IMG/VR virus record: IMGVR_UViG_3300028610_001866
Coordinates: 1 to 31,155 of that record
Direction: 5' to 3' (one strand)
DNA: 31,155 bases
From: a virus
Shown: positions 5,301 through 29,532 of the stretch, one piece after another
Numbering within the stretch: the stretch's first letter is position 1
How the letters are laid out: every line of letters starts with the position of its first letter
The notes under the pieces: model-generated
What the model saw: only the letters and a program-made list of their open reading frames with translations
Told to the model about the DNA's origin: nothing
The model's database searches: none
Position numbers and translations under genes: made by a program

Positions 5301-5305
5301 AAGAA

Positions 5306-5327
5306 AAGCCCCGGTTTGCCGGGGCTT
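5306..5327 (-). terminator. Rho-independent terminator of the minus-strand gene
   Basis: A 9-bp GC-rich stem (AAGCCCCGG / CCGGGGCTT) with a 4-base TTTG loop. On the minus strand it is followed by TTTTCTTTTA, a good U-tract; on the plus strand only GGTG follows. It lies 6 bases past the stop of the minus-strand gene and also separates it from the convergent glycan block. Confidence 0.85.
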
Positions 5328-5333
5328 GGTGAC

Positions 5334-5717
5334 TCAGGTCAAGTACGCGAGGCACTCATACCGCTTGCTTGCCATCTTGTACCAAGTCAGGCGAAGAGCG
5401 GTGTTCTCGAAGGGAGTGTAAGTCAGAAAGTCTTCGAGGGTGCCCGAGTGAGGAGTGACACTCCAAGCATGCCCATACTCGAAGACCGCTTCACCCGACT
5501 CACCGCACAACAGGCAACTGAGAGGAGTGCCGTCTTCTTGCAACAGAACAAGACCATAAGCGCGGAGAAGATCTTCTATCTCTTCAAGCGGTATGTCAGT
5601 GAAATAAGTCGGCTTCATCAGGGCATAAAGTTCTTTAGCAACCGGGGCTTTCTGTTTGGCAGTGAAGAAGGTCTCGGTGCGGGGGGCGGCGGGGGTCGTT
5701 GTTTGTTTCATCATCAT
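5334..5717 (-). CDS. Unknown minus-strand accessory (moron-like) protein
   Basis: A 127-residue protein of unknown function, the only clear minus-strand gene in the window. The start chosen is the first of three consecutive ATGs (MMMKQTTTPAAPR), lying 6 bases after a TACCAT hexamer; an earlier in-frame ATG at 5735 would fall inside that promoter. The sequence has a polar N-terminus, a helix (AKELYALMKPTYFTD), LEEIEDLLRAYGLVLL, a CLLC pair, and aromatic C-terminal strands. Codons such as GCC, ACC, CGC and CTG are prominent, unlike the CGA/GGG-rich neighbours, which suggests recent acquisition. It has its own terminator and probable promoter, the layout of a lysogenic-conversion or anti-defence moron, but no family is recognised. 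Confidence 0.7.
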   Translation of the reverse strand: MMMKQTTTPAAPRTETFFTAKQKAPVAKELYALMKPTYFTDIPLEEIEDLLRAYGLVLLQEDGTPLSCLLCGESGEAVFEYGHAWSVTPHSGTLEDFLTYTPFENTALRLTWYKMASKRYECLAYLT

Positions 5718-5723
5718 GATGCT

Positions 5724-5752
5724 ATGGTAAACCATGCGGGCGAGAAAGTAAA
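5724..5752 (-). promoter_or_regulatory. Promoter for the minus-strand gene
   Basis: On the minus strand, TTTACT (5747-5752) and TACCAT (5724-5729) are separated by 17 bases, and TACCAT ends 6 bases before ATG 5717. There is no Shine-Dalgarno, consistent with a leaderless mRNA. A short inverted repeat (ATGGT-tt-ACCAT) overlaps the -10 region. Confidence 0.5.
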
Positions 5753-5766
5753 GTGATATGTATCAC
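5753..5766. promoter_or_regulatory. Operator-like palindrome GTGATA-TG-TATCAC
   Basis: A perfect 6-bp inverted repeat with a 2-base centre, directly upstream of the minus-strand -35 and about 45 bases before the plus-strand promoter copy B. Position in a divergent promoter region and half-site sequence resemble operators of phage repressors; the binding protein is unknown. Confidence 0.45.
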
Positions 5767-5798
5767 ATTTTTCGCCTAAAATGAAAAAAAGTCGCACG

Positions 5799-5818
5799 GT
5801 GCATAATTAAGACGAGAG
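5799..5818 (+). promoter_or_regulatory. Repeated phage promoter motif (copy B)
   Basis: GTGCATAATTAAGACGAGAG is identical over 20 bases to the copy at 21941-21960. The -10-like CATAAT is at 5802-5807. The downstream gene (5841) has a leader with a good Shine-Dalgarno (GAAAGGGGTAAAG), so this copy gives a leadered mRNA. It opens the long block of small genes. Confidence 0.55.
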
Positions 5819-5840
5819 AAAATTTGAAAGGGGTAAAGCA

Positions 5841-10859: not shown

Positions 10860-10906
10860 TCGCCTCTGTCATCATGAGATGGTAAACTTCGAGGTTGAGA
10901 CAACTT

Positions 10907-12515: not shown

Positions 12516-12563
12516 GTGAAAGTCTCTTCACGGGCCGCTCAGCACACTTTACGAGGGTTTTAA
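12516..12563 (+). CDS. Possible 15-residue leader peptide ahead of the MuF gene
   Basis: AAGGGGG, then GTG, then 14 further codons (KVSSRAAQHTLRGF) ending in a TAA that shares its last A with the MuF ATG (TAATG). The Shine-Dalgarno and the exact stop/start overlap suggest translational coupling, which could limit expression of the downstream toxin-fused protein. A chance mini-ORF cannot be excluded. A GTGAA/TTCAC inverted repeat spans its start. Confidence 0.25.
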   Translation: MKVSSRAAQHTLRGF

Positions 12564-14296
12564 TGTGCGAAGCACATCGCGTGCCGAAGTTATCGGCGGC
12601 ATCATTCAAAAAACTCAAGCCCGCCGAAGAGCGGCGCCGGGCTCGACTGTATGCTGAACTTTGGGGTGAGCTTGAACCTGAGATCGAGACTCTCACCGAG
12701 ATCATTCGTCTCGATGCGCTCGCTGAACTCAGAGAACTCGAAGGTAAGTTCGCGGGTTTGCGACAGGGGCGAGAACTAAAAGCGGCAACTGTTCAACACA
12801 TCGCCTCTCTCGAAGCGGTCGGTCAAGGATACATCGACGATCTCAACGTCACCATTACACAGATACAGAGTAAGCGGGCGCCCGTTCTTGAGACAAGGAT
12901 CTCGGGCACACTTGACAAGGCGGGTCAGAAGTTCAGCAAATCAACATCGACGCGCATTGGTTTCAAACATCCCGGCTTTCCTAAAGAGATTCGCCCGTGG
13001 ATTAACTCACGAGTACCCGAGCTTGCCGATAAGATGGGAGTGTTGCGAAAGCGTGCGGTGTTCCGATCCGTTGTGCGAGGTGTGCGTTCAGGCGAGACGC
13101 TCGACAAGATCGAGGGCCGTATTCGACAACGGTATCAATCTTGGGCGAAGTCAAGCCCGGCGTCAATTGCTCGCACTGAGGTCGGCTTTGTACATGCTCA
13201 GTCGCAATGGGCGACGATCAAGAAGCTCGGTATACCGCCGAATGAACTTGTTAAGATTTGGCTCACGTCGCGAGACAGTCGAGTTCGAGGGCTCAACCCG
13301 AGAGACAATGCGAATCACGTTGTGCTCGATGGTAAGCGTCGTTTTCTCAATCAACGATTTTCGAACGGACTCTTATATCCTCGTCAACCCGGTGGGCGCG
13401 CGAGTGAGGTGATCAATTGTCGTTGTGTATTACTCTTCGAGCGAAAGAAGGGTAAGATGCGCCGGGTCAAACCGGGTAAGTTCACCACGAAGCGGACGGT
13501 GCCGTTCAATCAGTTTGGAGATATTGAGCCGCCGACTTCAATTGTATTGCCTGAAGAACTCATTGAAACGATCCCGAAGGCATCAAGAGACGATGCGCTC
13601 GAAGGTGCTCGTGCTCTATTCAATAATGGCAAGGCGGTTGAACCCGAGATCTCGGGCATTTTCAAGAGTGTTGCCAAAAGTGAGAAGGGTGAGATTCACG
13701 GTTTCGCGTTCAGGCTCAAGACACGTAAGAGTATTGTCTCGAAGATCGGGCGCCTCATGAATGAAGAGGCGATGTCATTGCCGCAAGCTCTTGATAATAT
13801 TCAAGATATCAATAGATATACGATGGTCTTTGAGCATGATACATTTGTACGGAATTCGAAGAACGCAATCAGGGCATTCAGGAAAGAAGGTTGGCATCTC
13901 GTCAAAGGAAATAATGCATTCGGCGGTGACTTTTATCATGGGTATAATGTGAAACTTCAAAAGGGAGGTCAGTTCATTGAAATTCAGTTTCATACACCGA
14001 CAAGCATTGAGATAAAAGAACCGTCACATATACTATATACGAAGAGTCGCGATTTGCCGAAGGGCTCGGCTGATCGACTCGACATGGAAGAAGAGATTAG
14101 AAAGTTATGGCAAGAAGATCTCTTGCCCGCCGGAGATTGGCAAGGGTTACAGACGAAAGGCGATGTTTTAATATTCAAGCCGAAAATACCTCGCCCGTTC
14201 TCAGGTAAGCCGGGGCCGTTCGATGTCGGCACGTTGCCGTTTTATAATCGAGTCGGTACTACATTTGGGCCGAGTGGCGGTGGTGAAGGGGGTTAA
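12563..14296 (+). CDS. MuF-type head morphogenesis protein fused to a RelA/SpoT-like toxin-type domain
   Basis: A 577-residue two-part protein. The MuF/SPP1 gp7 part (about residues 150-295) has ARTEV (203-207), LTSRDSRVRGLNPRDNANHV (234-253) and the family-ending INCRC (284-288). MuF proteins are minor head proteins that may be carried with DNA into the host. After a linker, residues about 365-500 resemble RelA/SpoT nucleotidyltransferases: FRLKTRKSIVSKIGR (383-397), QDINRYTMVF (414-423), YHGYNVKL (458-465), EIQFHT (473-478), SHILYTKSR (488-496). Catalytic-type residues R384, K394, D415, Y461, E473 are retained. MuF fusions to polymorphic toxins are a described class. The C-terminal DNA is AT-richer than the rest. 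ATG 12563 follows GAGGG. Confidence 0.78.
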   Translation: MCEAHRVPKLSAASFKKLKPAEERRRARLYAELWGELEPEIETLTEIIRLDALAELRELEGKFAGLRQGRELKAATVQHIASLEAVGQGYIDDLNVTITQIQSKRAPVLETRISGTLDKAGQKFSKSTSTRIGFKHPGFPKEIRPWINSRVPELADKMGVLRKRAVFRSVVRGVRSGETLDKIEGRIRQRYQSWAKSSPASIARTEVGFVHAQSQWATIKKLGIPPNELVKIWLTSRDSRVRGLNPRDNANHVVLDGKRRFLNQRFSNGLLYPRQPGGRASEVINCRCVLLFERKKGKMRRVKPGKFTTKRTVPFNQFGDIEPPTSIVLPEELIETIPKASRDDALEGARALFNNGKAVEPEISGIFKSVAKSEKGEIHGFAFRLKTRKSIVSKIGRLMNEEAMSLPQALDNIQDINRYTMVFEHDTFVRNSKNAIRAFRKEGWHLVKGNNAFGGDFYHGYNVKLQKGGQFIEIQFHTPTSIEIKEPSHILYTKSRDLPKGSADRLDMEEEIRKLWQEDLLPAGDWQGLQTKGDVLIFKPKIPRPFSGKPGPFDVGTLPFYNRVGTTFGPSGGGEGG

Positions 14297-17404: not shown

Positions 17405-18049
17405 TTGAAAATTGAAGGCGTCGTGTGTGTATGCTCTCGTGGCATGATGATGTCACGAACGAGTGAAAGCATTGACCGCAACAAAGAGAACATGTTCGGG
17501 TATTGGATCACCGAGTACACGCACGAAGACGAGATACCTGACGCTCAGAATAATGTCACAGCGACGGCGCTCGCACACAAGCCCGAATGGATTTGGTTTG
17601 TCGAAGAAGATGTAGTACCGCCGATTGATGCACTTGTGAAGATGGTCGAGTATGCGGTCAACAACGGGTTGCCTGTCGTTACGGCATGGTACGGGCTCGA
17701 CGGGGGGCTCAAGTCATACGAGCTTGCGAACGATGGCACATTGCTTTTCGCCGGGCTCGGGTGTCTTCTCATACGGGCTGATGTGTTTGAACAATTCGAC
17801 CGACCGATCTTCAGAACAGATACGATTTGGACTGCAAAGATTCATGAGGCGAAGATGGTGCGGCAAGCCGACCCGGTTGGTGATAGCGGGGTGAAATATG
17901 GTAAGCAAGATATTCACTTCTTCGGTGTGCTGAATGAAAAGCAAATTGCGTGCGCGCTTGTCGACATAGAATGTTTGCATCTCGGTGTTAAGAAATGGGG
18001 CGCTCAGGGCGACAATCGAGGTGTGCATCAATTACGCCTGAAAGGATAA
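17405..18049 (+). CDS. GT-A-type glycosyltransferase-like protein
   Basis: A 214-residue protein. It starts with a strand (VVCVCSRG), followed by WIWFVEEDVVPPIDALVKMVEYA, where EEDVVPP matches the acidic DxD/EED metal-binding motif of GT-A enzymes. VVTAWYGLDGG and LLFAGLGCLLIRADVFEQFDRPIF fit the acceptor-side segment. KQDIHFFGVLNEKQIACALVDIECLHLG closes the domain. The start appears to be TTG 17405, preceded by AAGGGGG; no ATG fits. Substrates are unknown. It directly follows the fibre-like genes, so modification of those or of other virion proteins is an inference. Confidence 0.7.
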   Translation: MKIEGVVCVCSRGMMMSRTSESIDRNKENMFGYWITEYTHEDEIPDAQNNVTATALAHKPEWIWFVEEDVVPPIDALVKMVEYAVNNGLPVVTAWYGLDGGLKSYELANDGTLLFAGLGCLLIRADVFEQFDRPIFRTDTIWTAKIHEAKMVRQADPVGDSGVKYGKQDIHFFGVLNEKQIACALVDIECLHLGVKKWGAQGDNRGVHQLRLKG

Positions 18050-18113
18050 TACTAAACAGGATAAACTCGGTGGCGCACAACACCAAAAACTAAAGCGCAA
18101 TAGGCGAATATTG

Positions 18114-18175
18114 GTTTACATGCGTCGGGTTTTTTTCGCCTGTCACGGTGAGTGAATTCGGCGTAAACTTTTTTT
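18114..18175 (+). terminator. Possible terminator after the glycosyltransferase gene
   Basis: GTTTAC (18114-18119) can pair with GTAAAC (18163-18168), with CGCC/GGCG pairing inside, followed by seven T residues (18169-18175). The loop is long, so this is weak. The stretch 18050-18113 shows nothing else recognisable. Confidence 0.3.
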
Positions 18176-18186
18176 GACTTATTTTC

Positions 18187-18201
18187 TGGCACGGGGCTTG
18201 C
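18187..18201 (+). promoter_or_regulatory. Sigma-54 (RpoN) promoter match P1
   Basis: TGGCACGGGGCTTGC matches the -24/-12 consensus TGGCAC-N5-TTGC exactly, with the -24 GG and -12 GC at the required 10-base gap; it continues with A, matching TTGCW. Transcription would start near 18213, towards the capsid operon. Confidence 0.65.
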
Positions 18202-18257
18202 ATGCATTTTCGGATTTTCGAAAAGTCCAAAATCGCCTGAGGATCGCTTCTAACGAG

Positions 18258-18276
18258 TTGCACATGCTTTGTGCAA
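18258..18276. promoter_or_regulatory. Dyad TTGCACA-N5-TGTGCAA, possible activator site
   Basis: A perfect 7-bp inverted repeat with a 5-base spacer lies 42 bases upstream of sigma-54 match P2. Enhancer-binding proteins recognise such dyads, usually 80-150 bases upstream; this one would suit P2 or the reverse promoter P3. The binding protein is unknown. Confidence 0.35.
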
Positions 18277-18317
18277 ATTGACAGGGGGCGGTATGTAAGT
18301 TCTTTAGAATCAATGAG

Positions 18318-18332
18318 TGGCACGGGTCTTGC
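18318..18332 (+). promoter_or_regulatory. Sigma-54 (RpoN) promoter match P2
   Basis: TGGCACGGGTCTTGC is a second exact TGGCAC-N5-TTGC match on the plus strand, 131 bases after P1 and sharing its TGGCACGGG start. Transcription would begin near 18343, before the structured dyad at 18373-18411. Confidence 0.6.
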
Positions 18333-18372
18333 GTTCTTGTGGATAGAATTTTCCGAATAGTAGGGTAAGGGG

Positions 18373-18411
18373 GTGCCTGAGTTTTTGCTCTCAGAGCAAT
18401 CCTCAGGGCAC
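18373..18411. other. Nested inverted repeat (structured RNA or operator)
   Basis: An outer stem GTGCCTGAG / CTCAGGGCAC (one bulge) encloses an inner 6-bp stem TTGCTC / GAGCAA with a 3-base loop. If transcribed from P2 or P3 it would fold stably. No U-tract follows on the plus strand. It could equally be a protein-binding dyad. Confidence 0.4.
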
Positions 18412-18460
18412 GACTGTAAGGTGTTGTGAACAAAGAGTTTATAGCGACGAAAACTGTGTT

Positions 18461-18475
18461 GCAATAATCGTGCCA
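18461..18475 (-). promoter_or_regulatory. Sigma-54 (RpoN) promoter match P3, reverse strand
   Basis: On the minus strand TGGCACGATTATTGC matches TGGCAC-N5-TTGC exactly and continues with A. It points away from the capsid operon and would produce RNA antisense to P1/P2 transcripts, starting near 18450. No convincing minus-strand gene lies downstream within the gap. Confidence 0.55.
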
Positions 18476-18511
18476 TAAACAAAGTTAAAATAAGTTTCAC
18501 TGTTATTATAT

Positions 18512-18531
18512 CTTTCACCAAGCGGTGAAAG
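18512..18531. promoter_or_regulatory. Operator-like dyad CTTTCACC-AAGC-GGTGAAAG
   Basis: A perfect 8-bp inverted repeat with a 4-base centre, ending 3 bases before the TTTACA -35 of the promoter for 18570. A half-site-like TTTCAC also occurs at 18495-18500. The XRE-type regulator encoded at 18916 is a natural candidate to bind it; that is inference. Confidence 0.45.
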
Positions 18532-18569: not shown

Positions 18570-18944
18570 ATGATGCAAGTCTTCGAATCTAAGTCATTAG
18601 AGAGGCTCAAAGGATGTCCGCGATGCGGTAACGCGAAGTTCATTGCCGATCCTCTTTCGCCTTTTCCTCTTTGTGAAGAGTGTGCGCAATGTGATGAGTG
18701 TTCAGGGGCGAAAATAGTTGATCGAAAGATATGCGAGAAATGTCACGGTCGTGGGTACATTTTGAAGAACGTCAAGGTTTGGGGTCCGTCAAAAGGCGGG
18801 GGGCATGATTATGATGAAGAGAGCGATGACTTCTTCACCGAGGTTGAAGAGGGCGATGACATCGAAATGATTTCGCTCGACGATCTCGCTGATGATGAGT
18901 TCGCTGAATTCGAAGATGGCGAAGAAGGTCTCGATTTGTATTGA
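18570..18944 (+). CDS. Zinc-ribbon protein with three CxxC pairs and an acidic tail
   Basis: A 124-residue protein. CPRCGNAKF, CEECAQCDECSGAKI and CEKCHGRGY provide the cysteine pairs of a DnaJ-like or rubredoxin-like zinc domain; the last has CxxCxGxG character. Residues 75-124 are strongly acidic (EESDDFFTEVEEGDD, LADDEFAEFEDGEEG). I chose ATG 18570 because a promoter hexamer lies just upstream; a GTG at 18525 would extend it by 15 residues across promoter and operator. It overlaps the next gene by 29 bases. It resembles the zinc protein at 7600 in its Cys spacing. Function is unknown; protein or nucleic-acid binding is likely. Confidence 0.6.
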   Translation: MMQVFESKSLERLKGCPRCGNAKFIADPLSPFPLCEECAQCDECSGAKIVDRKICEKCHGRGYILKNVKVWGPSKGGGHDYDEESDDFFTEVEEGDDIEMISLDDLADDEFAEFEDGEEGLDLY

Positions 18945-20786: not shown

Positions 20787-21908
20787 ATGAACAGAGTTAC
20801 ACTTTTGAAGCACCTCGAAGATCTCAAGGCGTCAGGTAAACTAGCAGTGAATACCGACATCGTCGTTGGCGGCGAAGAAGCGGGCGCACTGTTAGGTGAT
20901 CTGAACCAGTTGATCGCGCAAGCAAAGGGCGGTCAATTGCCTCACGGTCTTCAGGCGGGAACAACTTTCGCAAATGGCGCGATCTTGATCGACGAATACG
21001 ACAACCTCGTGTTCGATGATCTTCGTCGCAATTTTCCTGTATGGAACAGGATCGACAAACGGCTCGCACCGGGTGAAACGACCGGGGGCTTTGATCAGAC
21101 GGCAGTCGCCACTGCTCGAAGTGCCGCAGTTCGAAACCTGTCTTTTGCAGGTACATCTCCCACGCGCTCGGCGAGAACCCGACGAGACATCAAGGCAATC
21201 GTATCTGATCTGTCTTTCACGATGTTTGATCGTTCGGTGTATCAACAGCAAGGTCGGAGATTTGGCAACCTCGAACAGAAGGACATCAGTGATCTGATGA
21301 CCGCTTGTTTCAACCAGTGGAACACCTTGTTCTATACGGGAGATGCAACCGGGTCGCCCCTTACGTTCGACGGTTTGAGGTCTCTTGTTACCGGGGCAGA
21401 GACCATCGCAAACACCACCTCAATCCTACTTGCGATTAACAACCGCATCACCAACATGCTGAACCAGTCGACGAAGATTGTCAGACCGACTGCAATTTAT
21501 TGCAACGCGGTCGTTCAGTTTCGGATTGAGCAGGAGTTGCTGAAGATGGGACATAAGCTCATTTACTCGCCGATTCAGGTCGGCCAAGCTGTGTTTCAGG
21601 TCGCATCTATTTCGACTCCCGTTGGTATGCTCCCGCTGATCGTTGATCCGTTCAACGCATCTGTTGCGGGCACCCCGACAGTGTACCCGACTTTCATCGT
21701 GAGTGAGGATAAACTGTCTTGGCAGTATGTCCAGCCTCTTGGTGCTTCGGGTGCCGATCCCAAAACATTCGAGATCAGCCTTGCAAACGATCTTGATCAG
21801 GAATACAAGACGGTGATGTTCGGTGCAATGGAGCTTCTTGGAGGCACGTCGCATCACTACCGACTTAACATTCAGGATCGAACGACCGTTGTTGATCCGA
21901 GTGCGTAA
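20787..21908 (+). CDS. Major capsid protein (HK97-fold type)
   Basis: A 373-residue protein of the expected size. A helical N-terminal arm (LLKHLEDLKASGKL) precedes the core; NQWNTLFYTGDATGSPLTFDGLRSLV (about residues 174-199) is the E-loop/P-domain-like segment that reads as in HK97-like capsids, with the typical Gly-Asp-x-x-Gly-x-Pro. VQFRIEQELLKMGHKLIY and STPVGMLPLIVDPF resemble the A-domain strands. Codon choice looks more biased (AAC, GGT, CGT) than in its neighbours, as expected for a very highly expressed gene. A ribosome-binding site TAAGAGGTAA lies before ATG 20787. Position after protease/scaffold supports the call. Confidence 0.82.
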   Translation: MNRVTLLKHLEDLKASGKLAVNTDIVVGGEEAGALLGDLNQLIAQAKGGQLPHGLQAGTTFANGAILIDEYDNLVFDDLRRNFPVWNRIDKRLAPGETTGGFDQTAVATARSAAVRNLSFAGTSPTRSARTRRDIKAIVSDLSFTMFDRSVYQQQGRRFGNLEQKDISDLMTACFNQWNTLFYTGDATGSPLTFDGLRSLVTGAETIANTTSILLAINNRITNMLNQSTKIVRPTAIYCNAVVQFRIEQELLKMGHKLIYSPIQVGQAVFQVASISTPVGMLPLIVDPFNASVAGTPTVYPTFIVSEDKLSWQYVQPLGASGADPKTFEISLANDLDQEYKTVMFGAMELLGGTSHHYRLNIQDRTTVVDPSA

Positions 21909-22036: not shown

Positions 22037-22693
22037 ATGAAGAAGTTCAAAGTCTATTTGAAAGATGCGTTCAACGGAGAAGTCACCGCCGTCAATGAAA
22101 AAGGTGAAATTAACATTCTCAAGGTTTGGCCTGAACAACATGAAGGTTCAGGTCAGATTCTTGCGTACTTCTGTATTGCAACACCCGCTGAACGCGATGC
22201 TCTTTGGGAGTCGGGTCTTGCGTGCAATCGTGCGGCGGCTATGGGGCTTATTGCACCGCCTCTTTCGCGGGGCGATGCACCTGTCAAGTACGACGATCCG
22301 ATACCTGATCATCACAAGATCTCTGAGAACGATCAGATCGAAGACGACCCGGTTGATCTTCAAGGTTTTGCAGATGAGTTCGAGACGGGTGAAGAAGAGA
22401 TCGATCTCGCCGATGACGACAGAGATCAAGAATCACTTGAGCCCGCACCGAATGTGCTCGGAGTAAGTGATCAAGAGACGCCGACGCCGCATCCCTTACC
22501 AACTGATCAGAAGATCGAAGCGGTTGTATCTCTGAGTGCACCGATCCGCGCACGACTGAAGAGCGCCGGGCTGACAACTGTCAACGACTTGGTTGACAAA
22601 TCTATCGACGATCTCGAAGCGGTGCCGGGCATCGGTAAGACAACGGCTTCGAAGCTCTTCGATGCGATGAATCAATTCAGAGACGACGATTAA
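22037..22693 (+). CDS. Capsid-adjacent protein with C-terminal helix-hairpin-helix
   Basis: A 218-residue protein. Residues about 168-213 (IRARLKSAGLTTVNDLVDK, LEAVPGIGKTTASKLFDAM) form a helix-hairpin-helix DNA-binding domain with the PGIG hairpin. The middle is acidic and probably disordered. The N-terminal 70 residues (KKFKVYLKDAFNGEVTAVNE, then CIATPAERDALWESGLA) resemble the N-terminus of the glycosyltransferase at 23383, sharing a C-TPxER...GL pattern. Placement directly after the capsid gene suggests a virion-associated or DNA-organising role. ATG 22037 follows AAAGAGGTAAG. It precedes the large glycan block by one base. Confidence 0.65.
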   Translation: MKKFKVYLKDAFNGEVTAVNEKGEINILKVWPEQHEGSGQILAYFCIATPAERDALWESGLACNRAAAMGLIAPPLSRGDAPVKYDDPIPDHHKISENDQIEDDPVDLQGFADEFETGEEEIDLADDDRDQESLEPAPNVLGVSDQETPTPHPLPTDQKIEAVVSLSAPIRARLKSAGLTTVNDLVDKSIDDLEAVPGIGKTTASKLFDAMNQFRDDD

Positions 22694-22694
22694 G

Positions 22695-23405
22695 ATGATC
22701 GGCGCGATTGTCTCTTGTTACAATCAGCACACGACGGTCGGCGACACTATTGAATCACTCATCGTGCAACGAGCCGCGCTTGATTGCGGGCTTGATGTTC
22801 AGATGATTGACGATGCTTCGGTGCCGCCGATCATGGTCGATCATACTTTTCCATTGCCTGATGACGTTTGTATCACTCAATGTGGAAGTGACGAGAACGG
22901 GGGCGTTCAGCGAATTCGCAATCGGGGCTTCAAGATCTATCGGGATTATTATCTTCGAGACGATCAACCCGAGTTTGTGATCTTCGTCGACGGGGATGTC
23001 ACATTCAACCCCGGTGCTTTTGCCGCAATGAAAAAGGCTCTCGAAGAGAGTGATGAATCGGTCGCGTATGCATACGGGCATTACTCTCGGACGGGTGCAC
23101 TCACGGGTCGTTTTTGTGCATGTCCATTCAATGGTGCAAGACTCAGGCAACACAACTACATCTCGACGATGTCATTGATCAGATTCAATGTTCTTGTCGA
23201 GGCGACGCCTTTACCGTTCATCGAGGATGAACTTCGCCTTCAAGATTGGTCTTTGTGGCTCAGGCTTCTCAATGCTGGATACACGGGGGTGATGGTGAAT
23301 GAGGTGCTCTTCTCGGCGTATTATCCAAATTCAGGTATCTCAGTTCGAGATCCACTTGATTATCAGAATTGGCGAGAGATCATTGCAAAAAAATACAATA
23401 CTTGA
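22695..23405 (+). CDS. Glycosyltransferase family 2-like (GT-A)
   Basis: A 236-residue enzyme. GAIVSCYNQHTTVGDTIESL (residues 3-22) is the classic GT2 opening; VQMIDDASVPP the first acidic strand; GGVQRIRNRGFK matches the conserved GxxxARNxG region; EFVIFVDGDVTFNPGAF contains the DxD metal motif (D98-G-D100). FIEDELRLQDWSLWLRLLNAGY contains the ED/QDWxLW catalytic-base region typical of this family. Sugar and acceptor are unknown. It begins the second glycan block, starting one base after the HhH gene, and its 3' end overlaps the next glycosyltransferase. Confidence 0.85.
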   Translation: MIGAIVSCYNQHTTVGDTIESLIVQRAALDCGLDVQMIDDASVPPIMVDHTFPLPDDVCITQCGSDENGGVQRIRNRGFKIYRDYYLRDDQPEFVIFVDGDVTFNPGAFAAMKKALEESDESVAYAYGHYSRTGALTGRFCACPFNGARLRQHNYISTMSLIRFNVLVEATPLPFIEDELRLQDWSLWLRLLNAGYTGVMVNEVLFSAYYPNSGISVRDPLDYQNWREIIAKKYNT

Positions 23406-25095
23406 AAAGACGTATGTCACGGTGTCGGGTGAGCTTGTTGCGGGCGGTCCTGTCAGAAAGATTTACACTGACGAGAATGGTGACAATTGGTTGAAGTGCA
23501 CACCGACCGAGCGTGCGGTGATTATCAAGCACGGGCTTCTTGCACCTGAGAAGCCGTGGGTTGACATTCTCCTGATCAAGTACGGGCAACCGAAGCTCGA
23601 AGCTCAATGCATTGATTCGATCAAGAAGTGCACCGATCTCTTTAAGCATCGACTCACTGATGTCGATAACAAATACATCGATAAGAATCTCGGGGCGCTT
23701 TGGAATGATTTGATTGACGCGACTGATGCGCCGTACGTGATTCTCTTGAACACCGATACGATTGTTTCGCCCGGTTGGGTTGATGATCTGCTCGAAGCTG
23801 CGATCAAATCGAAAGCTGATGCAGTCGGGCCGATGACTGACAAGTGCGGCATCGCATATCAAGTCGGTGAGCCGACGGTCAACCCTGAGCTTCGTGATGT
23901 GCCTCAACTCTCGGGCTTTTGTGTATTGATTAAGAAGAGGGCTTGGGCGCGGGTCGGTGGCTTTCCTGAGTTCTTTCCATTCTATGGGCAAGAATCAGAT
24001 CTCATGGATCGGATCGCAACGAAGATTCTTGCGAAGCACGTATTCGTCAAACATTTCGGCGGCAGTACGATTAAGAACACAAAGGGTCGATCTCAAAAGA
24101 TTGAGAAGGATCTCTCGCTCGGGGTGTATCGAAAAGTTCAGCGGTTCGATTGGCGGGGTACACGACTTCTTGTGCTAGGCGCCGGGCAAGGTAATCATTT
24201 CCCATTATGGCGGGGGATTGATCAGGCATGTTCAGAGATCCTCAAGCGCGGCGGGCAAGCGGTGCACCTACCTCTTGAGAAAATTCAAGAGGACGCAACG
24301 CTTCAATTTGCCCGTGAGATGATGCCGACAGCGACGCTTGTTGTGTGTACGAATCCGACGCGACTCATCGAGAGTGCGAAGAATATACAGAACGTGCCGG
24401 GCTCGCGCGCGCTATGGCACAATGATCTTCGCCCGGTCATCAACGATTATGTCGCATTGCATGGGTGCTTTCGTGCGCTCTTCATGTGCTGGAAACACAC
24501 ACAACTCAAATACGATCTCGAACAATGGGTTCAACTTCTCGGTGCGCCGTCATTCTATATGCCGCAAGGTTCAGTGATCAATCCGTATCTGAGACGTACG
24601 AAAGAAAAGTACAAGGCTCTCTTCATTGGGGGCACGACGAATGGTGAGTATCATGTCGGGCGCAAAGATTTCTTCACGCGGATCGGGGCAACAGTGCTCA
24701 ATGAGTTCGGGCGAAGTAAGAGATTAGAGGTCGAAAAAAGATCGCCTCGATTATACAGATCTGCACGATACAGTTTTGCATACTCACCGAATGTGGCGGG
24801 GTACAATTCATTAAGGTTGTACAACATGCTTGCATACGGCGGGCTTGTGCTCACGAAGTATTTCGGGGGGGTTGAAGAACTCTTCGAGTCGGGTCGACAT
24901 CTCTTCACGTTCAAGAATGTGCGTGAAGCTGAGTCAATTATGCACGAACTTGATGAACAACCGGCAATGCGTGAACAGATCGCGCGAGACGGTTGGAGAT
25001 TACAACAGGCGAAGCATACCGTGCTTTGGCGTATTATGAATATGATTGAAACGCTCAAGACAGGGCAACACACATTTTGGGGCAACAATGAATAA
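23383..25095 (+). CDS. Two-domain glycosyltransferase (GT-A plus GT-B/CgeB-like)
   Basis: A 570-residue protein. Residues 9-55 form a small domain resembling the N-terminus of the HhH protein (CTPTERAVIIKHGLLA). Residues about 58-240 are a GT2-like domain: YVILLNTDTIVSPGWVDDLL holds the NTD metal motif (123-125), and LSGFCVLIKKRAW with GGFPEFFPFYGQESDLMDRI the acceptor/base segment. Residues about 270-560 are GT-B-like: RLLVLGAGQGNHFPLWRGID and a C-terminal GYNSLRLYNMLAYGGLVLTK, matching the Glyco_trans_1_2 (CgeB) pattern. Two transfer reactions in one chain are likely. The start is uncertain: TTG 23383, preceded by GAGAG, is used; GTG 23422 is possible. It overlaps the previous gene by 23 bases. 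Confidence 0.75.
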   Translation: MQKNTILEKTYVTVSGELVAGGPVRKIYTDENGDNWLKCTPTERAVIIKHGLLAPEKPWVDILLIKYGQPKLEAQCIDSIKKCTDLFKHRLTDVDNKYIDKNLGALWNDLIDATDAPYVILLNTDTIVSPGWVDDLLEAAIKSKADAVGPMTDKCGIAYQVGEPTVNPELRDVPQLSGFCVLIKKRAWARVGGFPEFFPFYGQESDLMDRIATKILAKHVFVKHFGGSTIKNTKGRSQKIEKDLSLGVYRKVQRFDWRGTRLLVLGAGQGNHFPLWRGIDQACSEILKRGGQAVHLPLEKIQEDATLQFAREMMPTATLVVCTNPTRLIESAKNIQNVPGSRALWHNDLRPVINDYVALHGCFRALFMCWKHTQLKYDLEQWVQLLGAPSFYMPQGSVINPYLRRTKEKYKALFIGGTTNGEYHVGRKDFFTRIGATVLNEFGRSKRLEVEKRSPRLYRSARYSFAYSPNVAGYNSLRLYNMLAYGGLVLTKYFGGVEELFESGRHLFTFKNVREAESIMHELDEQPAMREQIARDGWRLQQAKHTVLWRIMNMIETLKTGQHTFWGNNE

Positions 25096-25738
25096 TGAAT
25101 CAAGACCACTAAGTGAATTAGAACCGCCGACAAGTGTCGGGCTTTACGGGGGATCTTGGACAGAAGATGAGAGCCGCCGAGAAGATCTTCGTCTCATGTT
25201 TGCTGAGAACAGATTGAAATTGAATCTCGGAAGCGGGCCGAAGAGATTTCATAAAAAGGATCACATCAACATTGACATCTCGCCCGCATGTGATCCTGAT
25301 TTCAAGCTCGATGTCGAGAATCGACCGATGCCGTTCGAGACTAATTCAGTGATCAGCGCATACGCTGACAACTTGCTTGAACATCTCGGAGATTTAACGC
25401 ACTTCATGAACGAGCTTCACCGGGTGCTTAGAGTTGGCGGTTTGTTTTGGTTTCGTGTGCCCGCCGTTGATCGATTCGAATTGCTAGAAGATGATGAGCA
25501 TAACGCAAAGGGTTTCAAGAAGGCGATGCAGGTTATCATGTGGGGCGCCTTCAGAGATCCCACGCACAAGACTTTCTTCTGTCAAGGAACAATGGACTAT
25601 TGGAATCACGAGCACCCGACTCATCGGGACTACGGGCGGGCTTATAGTTTCCTACCGTGGCATGTCGAAACAAAGGTGTTCCATAACCCGAGCAACGGTT
25701 TGTTCTTCTATGACGTGACGCAAGTACCAATAAAGTAG
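25088..25738 (+). CDS. Class I SAM-dependent methyltransferase
   Basis: A 216-residue Methyltransf_11-type enzyme. LKLNLGSGPKRF (about residues 43-54) is motif I, HINIDISPACDPDFKLDV the acidic beta-2 and following strand, and VISAYADNLLEHLGDLTHFMNELHRVLRVGGLFWFRVPA the motif IV/V region with the LLEH signature. The C-terminal FRDPTHKTFFCQGTMDYW with HPTHRDYG is typical of methyltransferases in polysaccharide clusters. ATG 25088 lies 8 bases before the stop of the glycosyltransferase. The following 53-base gap contains a short CTTTC/GAAAG hairpin only. Confidence 0.82.
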   Translation: MNNESRPLSELEPPTSVGLYGGSWTEDESRREDLRLMFAENRLKLNLGSGPKRFHKKDHINIDISPACDPDFKLDVENRPMPFETNSVISAYADNLLEHLGDLTHFMNELHRVLRVGGLFWFRVPAVDRFELLEDDEHNAKGFKKAMQVIMWGAFRDPTHKTFFCQGTMDYWNHEHPTHRDYGRAYSFLPWHVETKVFHNPSNGLFFYDVTQVPIK

Positions 25739-25791
25739 GCGTAAGGTGTGCTGAGAGCGTCATCAGGCGACTTTCTCGAAAGGCGAAGGCA

Positions 25792-26619
25792 ATGAGTCAA
25801 AGAAAAGTTTTCGGCGTCATCTTGCCGCATATGAGAGCATTCGGGGGCGTGCGGCGATTTCTTGAGATTGGTACGTGTTTAACACGACTCGGGCATCAAG
25901 TCATATACTTCGTCGGCGAAGTCTCAGATCTCAAATGGTATGGTGATAAGGCAAAGCCTCGTGTGCGAAGTTGGAACGAGACACCGTACAATGTCGACAT
26001 TATGTTGATCGGCGATCCGACAAATGCATGCGCGGGTAAATTGTCGCACGTCGTCGGGCACACTCAAGTATTCTTTTGGGTAATTGCCGGGGGCGAGTAT
26101 CGGGCGATGTATGAGAAGATTTACAAGACCGAGAGCAAGCGATTACATTTCATCGTCAACAATCGAGTTTTCTTGAAACACTACCCGAAGTCGTACTTGT
26201 GCGAGGGCGGGGTTAACACTCACCTCTTCAAGAGTACACGCAAACTTCGAGTCGGTTATTATGCCGGGCGGGGTCGGATCAAAGGCGAACCGACAATCGT
26301 CGACGCGCTTTATGATGTGCCTCAAGTCAAGTTGATACCAATACAGGGGCGCACATCTCAAGAGCTTGTGTTGATTTACAATTCGCTCGATTACTTCGTT
26401 GCATGGGAAGGGCGCGAAGGATGGTCAAACACGGCGGCTGAGGCGCTTGCATGCGGGGTGCCTGTTGTGAGCAATGGGTGCAACGTCGAACCGTTCTCGA
26501 ACCGGGTGATCTTGGTCGACGACTTGCGTGAGTTCTTTACTCAACCGATGGGCGACTTCTCATGGCAAGAGACAACTGACAAACTCTTGAATATTTTCAA
26601 ACTTACGGGGGCAATGTGA
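25792..26619 (+). CDS. GT-B glycosyltransferase (GT4-like, short)
   Basis: A 275-residue protein. VFGVILPHMRAFGGVRRFLEIGTCLTRLGHQVIYF is the N-terminal Rossmann segment of GT4 enzymes, including the Gly-Gly-x-x-Arg loop. LRVGYYAGRGRIKGEPTIVDAL corresponds to the inter-domain strand, and YFVAWEGREGWSNTAAEALACGVPVVSNG is the C-terminal donor-binding motif with the E-x7-E pattern (EGREGWSNTAAE) characteristic of GT4. It is shorter than usual (about 350-400). The start ATG 25792 has AAGGCGAAGGC upstream. The stop overlaps the next GTG start. Confidence 0.82.
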   Translation: MSQRKVFGVILPHMRAFGGVRRFLEIGTCLTRLGHQVIYFVGEVSDLKWYGDKAKPRVRSWNETPYNVDIMLIGDPTNACAGKLSHVVGHTQVFFWVIAGGEYRAMYEKIYKTESKRLHFIVNNRVFLKHYPKSYLCEGGVNTHLFKSTRKLRVGYYAGRGRIKGEPTIVDALYDVPQVKLIPIQGRTSQELVLIYNSLDYFVAWEGREGWSNTAAEALACGVPVVSNGCNVEPFSNRVILVDDLREFFTQPMGDFSWQETTDKLLNIFKLTGAM

Positions 26620-27164
26620 AGAGTTTTCAGTACAGGCACTTTGTGTGCAAGCTCATTGACAAAGCGAGAAGTAAGGCGGTCGTCGAAGTCGGTTGTTGGG
26701 ATGGCGGGCTTTCGCGCATGATATGGTCGCTCGGGTGTGTCGATAGTTTGATACTTGTCGACCCTCTTACAGTTGCCGGATGCAACCCGACGCGCGATGG
26801 CATTCAGTATCATATGCGCATGGGGAACGCGGGCACCATGACACAAGAGCAACTCGATGATGTGTGCATGAAGATCCTCACCGATGCGCCGGGCTTCGTG
26901 AGCTTCTTTCGTATGACATCGCTCGATGCGGCAAAGTATGTTGAGGATGAGTCGCTTGACTTCATTTTTATTGATGGCTTGCACTTTTACGAGAGTGTCA
27001 GAGAAGACATACTCGCTTGGTCGCCGAAGATCAAACCCGGTGGTATCATTTCAGGTGACGACATCAAGGGCGGCACATGGGCGAATGATGTTCGACGGGC
27101 GGTTGAAGAACTTGTGCCTGAATACGAACGAGAAGGTAAGGTATGGTATGCCGAGAAGGTATGA
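26616..27164 (+). CDS. Class I SAM-dependent methyltransferase (Methyltransf_24-like)
   Basis: A 182-residue protein. AVVEVGCWDGGLSRMIWSLG is motif I, SLILVDPLTVAG the acidic beta-2, and LDFIFIDGLHFYESVREDILAWSPKIKPGGIISGDDI the motif with FIDGxHxY typical of the Methyltransf_24 group, known for sugar or hydroxyl methylation. The start is GTG 26616 inside the previous stop (ATGTGA). The 3' end overlaps the next methyltransferase, which has the same family features; the two may be paralogues. Confidence 0.82.
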   Translation: MKSFQYRHFVCKLIDKARSKAVVEVGCWDGGLSRMIWSLGCVDSLILVDPLTVAGCNPTRDGIQYHMRMGNAGTMTQEQLDDVCMKILTDAPGFVSFFRMTSLDAAKYVEDESLDFIFIDGLHFYESVREDILAWSPKIKPGGIISGDDIKGGTWANDVRRAVEELVPEYEREGKVWYAEKV

Positions 27165-27753
27165 GAATCTAAACAAGATTATTGATGAGATCAACCCGAA
27201 GATCATTGTCGAGATCGGTACGTTCAACGGCAATCAGGCAATCAACATGATGACTGAGGCGTTGAGGTTTCATGCAATCGAGAAGCTCAGGTATATCGGG
27301 TTTGATCTTTTTGAGAAGCCGCCCGAGTACGAAGGCTCGAAGCCGGGCACGTTACCATTCAACGCGGTCGTCGCGAAGTTACACCGGGCATTACCGAGAT
27401 TGCGATTCAATCTTATCAAGGGGAATACGCGCGAGTCGATTGCAAACTTTCTCGGGGTAAGTGTCGGTGAGCGTATTGATATTAAAGCTGATTTTGTTTT
27501 CATCGACGGCGGGCATTCGCTCGATACGATTTGGAATGACTTTGATCTTGTGCGTCGATACATGTGCAAGTCAGGTACGGTGATCGTACTCGATGATTAT
27601 TATTTCGACCGGGATGATAAAGGATGCAAGCCGCTTATTGTTGAGATCATCGATGACGACAAGATTGAGATTGAGCTTCTCGATCCGATTGATAAGTTCG
27701 ACAAACCTGACGGGGTGTTGTCGGTTCAGTTTGTGAAGGTGACAATATTATGA
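27148..27753 (+). CDS. Class I SAM-dependent methyltransferase (Methyltransf_24-like), second copy
   Basis: A 201-residue protein. KIIVEIGTFNGNQAINMM is motif I, YIGFDLFE the beta-2 acidic end, and ADFVFIDGGHSLDTIWNDFDLVRRYMCKSGTVIVLDDYY the FIDGGHS motif with following aspartates that could bind metal. It is related in layout to the preceding gene. ATG 27148 follows AGAAGGTAAG; an earlier in-frame start at 26926 would lie inside the preceding gene and is rejected. It overlaps the next gene by 4 bases. Confidence 0.82.
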   Translation: MPRRYENLNKIIDEINPKIIVEIGTFNGNQAINMMTEALRFHAIEKLRYIGFDLFEKPPEYEGSKPGTLPFNAVVAKLHRALPRLRFNLIKGNTRESIANFLGVSVGERIDIKADFVFIDGGHSLDTIWNDFDLVRRYMCKSGTVIVLDDYYFDRDDKGCKPLIVEIIDDDKIEIELLDPIDKFDKPDGVLSVQFVKVTIL

Positions 27754-28754
27754 AGATTGCGATTACAGGGGGATGCGGCTTTCTCGGCACGAACGTTGCG
27801 CTCAGGCTCATGAGTCGCGGGCATTCGGTTGTGTGTGTTGATAACTTTAGTCGACGAGGTTCGGAATGGAACGGGGCGACGTTGAAGAGGGCGGGCGCGT
27901 GTGTAAAAGAAGGTGACTTCCCTTACTTTGTTTACAAAGATTTTGATGTTGTGTTGCATTACGCGGCTCAGGTTACGGTGTCAGAATCGCTCGAAGATCC
28001 GTACGGGGATTTCCAAACAAACGTATCGAAGACTTTGATGATGCTCGACAACATCGGGCGAGATGCAAGTACGACACCTGTATTTATTTACGCCTCGACG
28101 AACAAGGTATACGGGCAAGGTTCATTCGATCTCATCTCTGAAGATTTCCCGCTTGGGTACACATCACCGTATGCTCTCTCGAAGGGCACCGCTGATAATT
28201 ACTTTACGATGCTCGGGCATCTCGGTGATCTCTCTTCAATTGTGCTTCGACAGTCGTGCTTATATGGCTCGTATCAATACGGTATCGAGGGGCAAGGTTG
28301 GCTCGCATGGTTTCTTCAGAAGATCGCCGGGGGCGAGACGCTCACGATCTTCGGTGATGGGCAACAGGTGAGAGATGTGCTCGAAGTTCGTGATTATGCG
28401 AACTTGATCGTGAAGATTATCGAGCATCCAAACTTGCGACAACAACTTGCGACAGGTGAAGTCTTTAATGTTGGCGGCGGGGTTGAGAATGCGCTCTCGC
28501 TCATGCAAGCGGTTGACATTATTTCGGGGTTGACTAAGTCGAACCCGACGATTAGATTCGAAGCCGGGCGCCTCGGAGATCAACAACATTATGTGAGCGA
28601 CATCGAGAAGGCGAACACGGTGTTCAATTGGCAACCGAAGATCAGTCCTGAGCGCGGGCTCACCGATCTATTGAGTTGGGTTCAAGGGCGTGTACCGTCA
28701 GAGAGTTACGAGATAATTGAAAGAGGTGATTGTGAGCGGGGATACTTTGTTTGA
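27750..28754 (+). CDS. NAD-dependent sugar epimerase/dehydratase (CDP-paratose 2-epimerase-like)
   Basis: A 334-residue extended SDR. TGGCGFLGTN (residues 6-15) is the dinucleotide-binding loop; VVCVDNFSRRGSEWNGATL closely recalls the DNxSRxGSExN segment of CDP-tyvelose/paratose epimerases. FIYASTNKVYG carries the Thr/Ser active-site strand, and YALSK the YxxxK pair. FNVGGGVENALSLMQ is the C-terminal substrate region. Epimerisation of a nucleotide-activated deoxysugar is likely; which one is inference. ATG 27750 overlaps the previous stop (ATGA). Its sequence differs clearly from the SDR at 3225, so the phage encodes two distinct sugar-modifying SDRs. Confidence 0.86.
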   Translation: MKIAITGGCGFLGTNVALRLMSRGHSVVCVDNFSRRGSEWNGATLKRAGACVKEGDFPYFVYKDFDVVLHYAAQVTVSESLEDPYGDFQTNVSKTLMMLDNIGRDASTTPVFIYASTNKVYGQGSFDLISEDFPLGYTSPYALSKGTADNYFTMLGHLGDLSSIVLRQSCLYGSYQYGIEGQGWLAWFLQKIAGGETLTIFGDGQQVRDVLEVRDYANLIVKIIEHPNLRQQLATGEVFNVGGGVENALSLMQAVDIISGLTKSNPTIRFEAGRLGDQQHYVSDIEKANTVFNWQPKISPERGLTDLLSWVQGRVPSESYEIIERGDCERGYFV

Positions 28755-29532
28755 ATACTTGAACATTTATACGGAAGATCAGCGGGGTGCGCACCCGTGG
28801 ATTTTGCGACGGTGCGCGCTTGAGATCCGCAAAATGTATCCGGCGGTTACGATCAATGGGGCGCCGCGAGAGATTAACTACTCGATCAATTATGCCTTGT
28901 TCCGAAATGTACCGGGTATCAGGGTCGGTCACTATACTCATCTTGAAGAGCGCGGCAAATTTCGACAGCGGTTTATCGAGACGATACCGTTGTATAATTA
29001 CTACACGCTGACGTGTAATAATACCGCGAAGCTCTTGCTCGAATATGGCGCCGAACGGGATCGGATTTTCAAGGTGCCGTACGGGAGTGACGACCGGGTG
29101 AAGAAGAAGCCCGTGTTCGGTGTTGTTGGGCGCACATACCCGAGCGGGCGAAAAGGCGAATACATGGTTGAACGAATGGTCGCCGAAGGCTATGACGTGC
29201 GCGCATGGGGTCGAGGTTGGCCTGTGCCGAATGTTCAGAATGAATGGGAACAGATTCCTGACTTCTATAAGTCGCTCGATTATCTTGTCGTGACGAGCTT
29301 GAACGAGGGTGGTCCTGTACCAGTCATTGACGCGATTGCGGCGGGCGTGCCTGTTATCGCGCCCGATGTTGGTTGGTGCTTTGAGTTTCCTGTTATCAGG
29401 TACAAGCGCGGAGATTGGCACTCGCTCTTTAACGTGCTCAAGAAATTAACTCAACCGCCGACATGGGCGAAGTGGTCAGCGGCTCATGGCAATATATTCA
29501 CAAAGATTGCCCGGCAAGAAGGGATAATTTGA
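28732..29532 (+). CDS. GT-B glycosyltransferase
   Basis: A 266-residue protein. The N-terminal half is variable; FGVVGRTYPSGRKGEYMVERMVAEGYDVRAWG is the donor-side strand-loop-helix of GT-B enzymes. FYKSLDYLVVTSLNEGGPVPVIDAIAAGVPVIAPDVGW is a clear GT4-like donor-binding motif, with NEGGPVPVIDAIAAG in the E-x7-E position (second acid replaced by Asp). The start is GTG 28732 with AAAGAGGTGA upstream; a longer TTG start at 28717 would place that site inside the gene. It overlaps the epimerase by 23 bases and closes the glycan block. Confidence 0.8.
   Translation: MSGDTLFEYLNIYTEDQRGAHPWILRRCALEIRKMYPAVTINGAPREINYSINYALFRNVPGIRVGHYTHLEERGKFRQRFIETIPLYNYYTLTCNNTAKLLLEYGAERDRIFKVPYGSDDRVKKKPVFGVVGRTYPSGRKGEYMVERMVAEGYDVRAWGRGWPVPNVQNEWEQIPDFYKSLDYLVVTSLNEGGPVPVIDAIAAGVPVIAPDVGWCFEFPVIRYKRGDWHSLFNVLKKLTQPPTWAKWSAAHGNIFTKIARQEGII

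Follow-up and report, generated by a model that had tools for sequence, protein, structure and literature searches.

The window, meaning the whole stretch of DNA analysed here, is a complete IMG/VR virus record of 31,155 bp, and the non-coding gap before its probable capsid operon holds three exact -24/-12 elements of the type read by sigma-54, a stress and nitrogen sigma factor of bacteria. Two of these (P1 and P2) are aimed at the capsid genes, while the third (P3) faces P1 and P2 from the other end of a segment that lies reversed in the closest relative. We put the probability at roughly 0.5 that this gap is a control region binding the host's sigma-54 RNA polymerase, most likely promoting the capsid operon via P1 and P2. 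The direction of P3, the inversion between relatives and the orientation-blind clusters of such sites in other phages leave some weight on a binding, decoy or recombination-related role.

Sigma-54-type sites in the gap before the capsid genes

All accepted genes of the window lie on the plus strand, with the terminase at the left end, the portal gene at 10895 and a Mu-F-like head protein at 12563. The site-bearing gap is the second largest non-coding gap, spanning 18050-18524, or reaching 18573 if the likelier start codon of the next gene is used.

17405..18049, plus strand: upstream gene encoding 214 aa, without a Pfam match; on the same strand in all relatives
18187..18201, plus strand: P1, sigma-54 -24/-12 element TGGCACGGGGCTTGC, exact match; faces the capsid operon; predicted start ~18213
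18259..18275, no strand: dyad TGCAC-N7-GTGCA with NtrC-site spacing, sole exact copy in the window; possible activator site or operator
18318..18332, plus strand: P2, sigma-54 -24/-12 element TGGCACGGGTCTTGC, exact match; predicted start ~18344
18461..18475, minus strand: P3, facing sigma-54 element TGGCACGATTATTGC, exact match; predicted start ~18449, away from the capsid genes
18574..18944, plus strand: first gene downstream, rich in cysteine and weakly similar to the DnaJ zinc finger; start set from the relative, GTG at 18525 possible
20787..21908, plus strand: probable major capsid protein, matching the PHROG for major head protein weakly; part of the same plus-strand gene run

The three TGGCAC-N5-TTGC matches lie exactly where the initial annotation had placed them, at 18187 (plus), 18318 (plus) and 18475-18461 (minus), and a pattern scan of the whole record found no fourth. 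Tolerating one mismatch added a single match in the window, at 27785. The annotation's expected count of about 0.001 agrees with simulation, which gave 0.0015 sites per 475-bp gap; among 100,000 order-1 Markov sequences of the gap, 148 held one site and none held two. On a weight matrix derived from the sites of other phages, P1 reached 22.2 and P2 and P3 21.1 each, with the next-best position in the window at 11.9. Each of the three has GG at -24 and GC at -12 at the fixed spacing, and each has a G after TGGCAC, a position that was absent from the original search pattern; the rest of the extended consensus is present in part (Y before TGG in one of three, W after TTGC in two of three). Predicted starts were calculated with the C of TTGC set at -12. 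P1 and P2 are upstream of and aimed at a gene, and P3 is not. A packaging or recombination site found in many copies across the genome, which the annotation had named as an alternative, fails on copy number, as all copies lie within this one gap.

The closest relative in the collections searched is IMGVR_UViG_3300028883_000095 (locus L004), whose capsid protein is 83% and portal protein 68-71% identical to those of the window; the portal proteins of two distant relatives are ~45% identical. Gene order around the gap is common to the window and all three, and homologues of the capsid protein sit at the same place in relatives (83% and 63% identical). Neither the capsid protein nor the portal had relatives in 84,980 genomes, and named phages gave no match to the capsid protein or the gap. 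The initial annotation had proposed looking for the same element in related phages. In the closest relative, the gap has an exact plus-strand site and, facing it, a second site that departs from the pattern at one base; they are the best two weight-matrix matches in 35 kb. The two distant relatives have no exact site across their whole records. One of the two, L048, nevertheless has its best sigma-54-like match in 15 kb (13543-13557) within this gap, ahead of the cysteine-rich gene; TGGCAC is intact there and the -12 part broken, and the match is perhaps a decayed sigma-54 site.

No sigma-70-like pair was found in the gap of the window or of the closest relative. This absence is weak evidence, since the distant relatives have no such pair either. 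Together with the exact -24/-12 geometry, the additional G and the conservation in the closest relative, it makes recognition of the window sites by sigma-54 very probable. This part of the initial annotation's RpoN reading is therefore well supported, whereas its tie between the capsid operon and the host's RpoN state, along with promoter function and physiology-dependent expression of the region, is a step that we infer; no result favoured its suggestion of spatially patterned expression.

Among the window proteins scanned with Pfam, neither sigma-54 nor enhancer-binding domains appeared. Likewise, no sigma-54 DNA-binding domain and no enhancer-binding domain was found in 48 records, possibly mostly fragments: 46 phages with the site clusters described below, plus the closest and one of the distant relatives. 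The reader of the sites would thus be the host's sigma-54. A candidate for the activator's site is the dyad between P1 and P2, which has the ten outermost bases of the NtrC consensus TGCACCAnnnTGGTGCA (PMC8743547). The closest relative's gap also has one exact TGCAC-N7-GTGCA dyad, the sole copy in its 13-kb locus, along with both of the exact IHF-type sites of that locus. In the window the dyad precedes the P2 start by ~76 bp; in the closest relative it lies downstream of both sites and also resembles a weak terminator on the minus strand. The dyad and IHF-type sites appear to fit a sigma-54 control region, though the dyad is not consistently upstream.

A search of the gap for RNA families found none, the lone match being a sub-threshold eukaryotic snoRNA, and leader folding in the window was not clearly better than in shuffles. 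Two minus-strand ORFs spanning the gap were rejected as genes for want of conservation at the protein level. The weak tblastn match of one of them reflects inverted DNA similarity, and the relative's matching stretch has a stop in all three frames.

Inversion of the site-bearing segment in the closest relative

The stretch that holds the sites aligns with the closest relative in reverse, and is bounded in both phages by imperfect inverted repeats.

18177..18496, no strand: segment reversed in the closest relative; reverse-complement match to L004 3430-3746
18165..18202, no strand: left arm of an imperfect inverted repeat (38 nt), comprising P1 and an A/T-rich stretch; agrees with the right arm at 27 of 38 positions
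18460..18497, no strand: right arm of this repeat, comprising P3 and an A/T-rich stretch

The inverted alignment of the segment scored 115 against 53 for the forward alignment and a shuffle maximum of 50, and the forward score was due to one arm only. With the bounding sites left out, the inner segment scored 82 inverted and 33 forward (shuffle maximum 40). Across four scoring schemes, both local and global, z ranged from 7 to 17 for the inverted and from 1 to 4 for the forward direction. Tested by halves, the left half was decisive alone; the right half was weaker (20 of 1000 shuffles reached its score) but collinear. The flanking genes, by contrast, align in the forward direction (112 and 125 vs 32 and 22). 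Despite similar global identities over aligned columns when end gaps were free (183/259 forward, 202/297 inverted), the scores relative to shuffles lead us to prefer inversion. On these alignments, a short non-coding segment is in opposite orientations in two lineages, with the order and strand of the flanking genes kept. An assembly artefact or a mixed population may be the source of the apparent inversion.

The closest relative has a 32-nt inverted repeat (81% matching). Thus both orientations between inverted repeats were seen, across two phages rather than within one population. In the inverted alignment, P1 pairs with the relative's facing site and P3 with its exact plus-strand site, while P2 has only a degraded counterpart. 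Copies aimed at the capsid genes are therefore exact in three of three cases and their counterparts aimed away in one of three, a pattern that fits selection on the plus direction in numbers too small to test.

Site clusters in other uncultured phages

Facing pairs at the window's spacing matched 20 stretches in the collection, against an expectation of ~1 (an estimate that assumes ~4e10 bases, made without a shuffled control scan), and several of them proved to be dense clusters. A scan for close tandem pairs matched at least 120 stretches. With near-copies removed, the matches listed included 29 clusters with at least four sites, and 74 independent groups of close-site loci. The pooled logo of 159 sites among the matches listed is the sigma-54 consensus, and this includes positions that, for most of the sites, were outside the search pattern: T/C before TGG (80%), G after CAC (81%) and A/T after TTGC (84%). 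The following are dense clusters of exact sites.

L030 418-925
L037 7749-8719
L038 1803-2123
L040 10961-11190
L045 8686-9063
L119 3661-3779
L131 55-227
L132 1964-2251

At the extreme, one cluster repeats its site ten times in tandem, mostly at intervals of 26-28 bp, and others alternate strictly every 18-25 bp; phasing of the tandem spacings at ~10.5 bp is only moderately supported (p ~0.015 after the period scan). The facing pairs of L030 mirror TGGCACG and TTGC but not the four bases between, a pattern that points to recognition of double-stranded DNA by a protein rather than to an RNA hairpin. In at least 12 cases a terminase gene shares the locus of the cluster, usually within a few kb. 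Among records with related terminases, seven named phages and one entry of a named collection had no clusters, and a blastn search with cluster DNA gave no match in named phages.

These clusters may, tentatively, serve to capture host sigma-54 polymerase as decoys or orientation-blind control regions, with the window as a sparse, invertible member placed before capsid genes. For the window itself, the corresponding explanation is that the sites hold the host's sigma-54 polymerase as stable closed complexes without starting transcription, so that polymerase is drawn off host genes, or transcription or replication across the gap is blocked. We consider this possible, at lower odds than the promoter reading. 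Such sites occur in clusters in many phages, in spacings down to 18-28 bp that are too tight for side-by-side polymerases, and their orientation appears unrelated to the genes: between co-directional genes, 28 sites were productive and 24 non-productive (approximate counts, from ORF-based gene calls), and some clusters sit between convergent ORFs. In Yersinia, by comparison, 26 of 29 intergenic RpoN sites are aimed at a gene start (PMC7657599). The window segment, moreover, has flipped freely. In Salmonella and Yersinia, RpoN binds intragenic and antisense sites that have no evident function as promoters, and some of these have been proposed to work by interference or storage (PMC3844500, PMC7657599), the silent sites serving as a store of RpoN polymerase in the latter proposal. 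Those are single chromosomal sites, however, unlike the phage sites clustered in non-coding gaps. Many close sites in gene-independent orientation are a feature of the other phages' clusters; the window has three well-spaced sites only, two of them well placed as promoters, and titration is hypothetical.

Two clusters have features of their own. In a 94-kb phage record, eleven sigma-54-type sites fall within 2.2 kb (L077 1455-3641), all on the minus strand like most of the longer ORFs, and this shared strand makes the cluster more promoter-like than the mixed ones. The nine-site cluster of L038 (1803-2123) has two DnaA boxes (TGTGGATAA) in or beside it, which could mark a replication origin.

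Possible modes of action and known systems

If the gap is a promoter region for the capsid operon, host sigma-54 polymerase would load at P1 and P2 and wait as a closed complex. Opening would fall to an enhancer-binding protein of the host, perhaps an NtrC-like one at the 18259-18275 dyad. The region would be nearly symmetric, with P3 at its mirrored end: with an inward-facing site at both ends, a flipped segment would still present one site towards the capsid genes. This reading draws on the aim of P1 and P2, the relative's two best sites lying in the same gap, the exact geometry and extra G, the top scores in the window, and the lack of a sigma-70-like pair in either gap. It also draws on the exactness of the plus-strand copies (3/3 vs 1/3 for their minus-strand counterparts, few as these are), on the NtrC-like dyad shared by the two gaps, on the relative's IHF-like sites, and on the sigma-54 logo from other phages. 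Against it stand the retention of P3 although it is wrongly directed, the inconsistent position of the dyad, the distant relatives without sites, the lack of orientation preference in other phages' clusters, and the implied 5' leader of ~230-360 nt. The region resembles the sigma-54 promoters glnAp2, pspA and nifH in its identical -24/-12 elements and spacing, its intergenic position and a possible NtrC-like dyad upstream. It differs from them in belonging to a phage, in lying before capsid genes, in its inward-facing pair and putative activator, and in the inversion of the segment between relatives.

Promoter segments of the fimS type and the G segment of phage Mu are likewise non-coding or variable, are flanked by inverted repeats and are found in both orientations. 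A switch of this kind, in which a recombinase acts at the inverted arms and flips the segment to turn capsid-operon transcription up or down, would account for the inversion between the two phages and for the 32-38-nt imperfect repeats that bound it, but we regard it as unlikely. Here the orientations differ only between diverged phages, and the arms match at 71-81%, whereas near-identity is usual for active invertible sites. Neither integrase nor resolvase families (PF00589, PF00239) were found among the window proteins scanned or in three relatives and twelve cluster phages (records that are possibly fragments). The putative promoters are also symmetric, and little change is expected from flipping a symmetric region.

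Somewhat less likely still is a different protein, such as a small terminase, a replication initiator or a repressor, whose motif happens to coincide with that of sigma-54. The frequent proximity of clusters to terminase genes and the DnaA boxes in one cluster family speak for it. The same asymmetric motif, however, recurs across phages with unrelated terminases and G+C contents from 0.31 to 0.67, which is better explained by a factor common to the hosts, and the cluster logo is that of sigma-54. Insertion of a small non-coding mobile element (MITE-like) in opposite directions in the two phages would suit the terminal inverted arms and the 289 vs 285 bp between the sites' outer ends, but is very improbable given a single copy per record in the window and closest relative, its location in the same gap of both phages, the lack of a target duplication on visual inspection and an inverted repeat that continues outward beyond TGGCAC.

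Sigma-54 promoters and the use of host regulators by phages are already known. We know of no face-to-face arrangement of sites among the phages that carry CtrA sites. In such alphaproteobacterial phages, the host regulator is reported to control phage genes according to host state (PMC9437464); they differ from the window in that CtrA is not sigma-54 and in that their hosts are known. The resistance of Salmonella rpoN mutants to some phages works through nutrition and RpoS (PMC8744999), a mechanism different from the one proposed for the window. We found no reports in the open-access literature of sigma-54 acting over phage structural genes or of sigma-54-site clusters in phages, and the window and the clusters hint at an undescribed phage link to host sigma-54. 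If the promoter reading is true, capsid production would depend on the nitrogen, envelope or motility state of the host; alternatively, the phage would draw sigma-54 off host promoters. Orientation-blind capture, if true, would be a new class of phage-host transcriptional interaction, and the wider class of clusters could be more novel than the window region if a decoy function holds. The clusters also make such phages searchable by sequence, and the inversion is a natural experiment on site retention after a change of direction.

Elsewhere in the window, the largest gap among accepted genes (5301-5840, 540 bp) contains a doubtful ORF (5316-5756) and a strong terminator-like hairpin on the minus strand (5327-5306). 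The gene following the capsid gene (22037-22693) has a C-terminal helix-hairpin-helix domain that also scores above the cut-off for PF03118, the RNA polymerase alpha C-terminal domain. Beyond it, predicted glycosyltransferases, methyltransferases and a sugar-nucleotide epimerase, partly conserved in relatives, lie amid structural genes (22695-29532).
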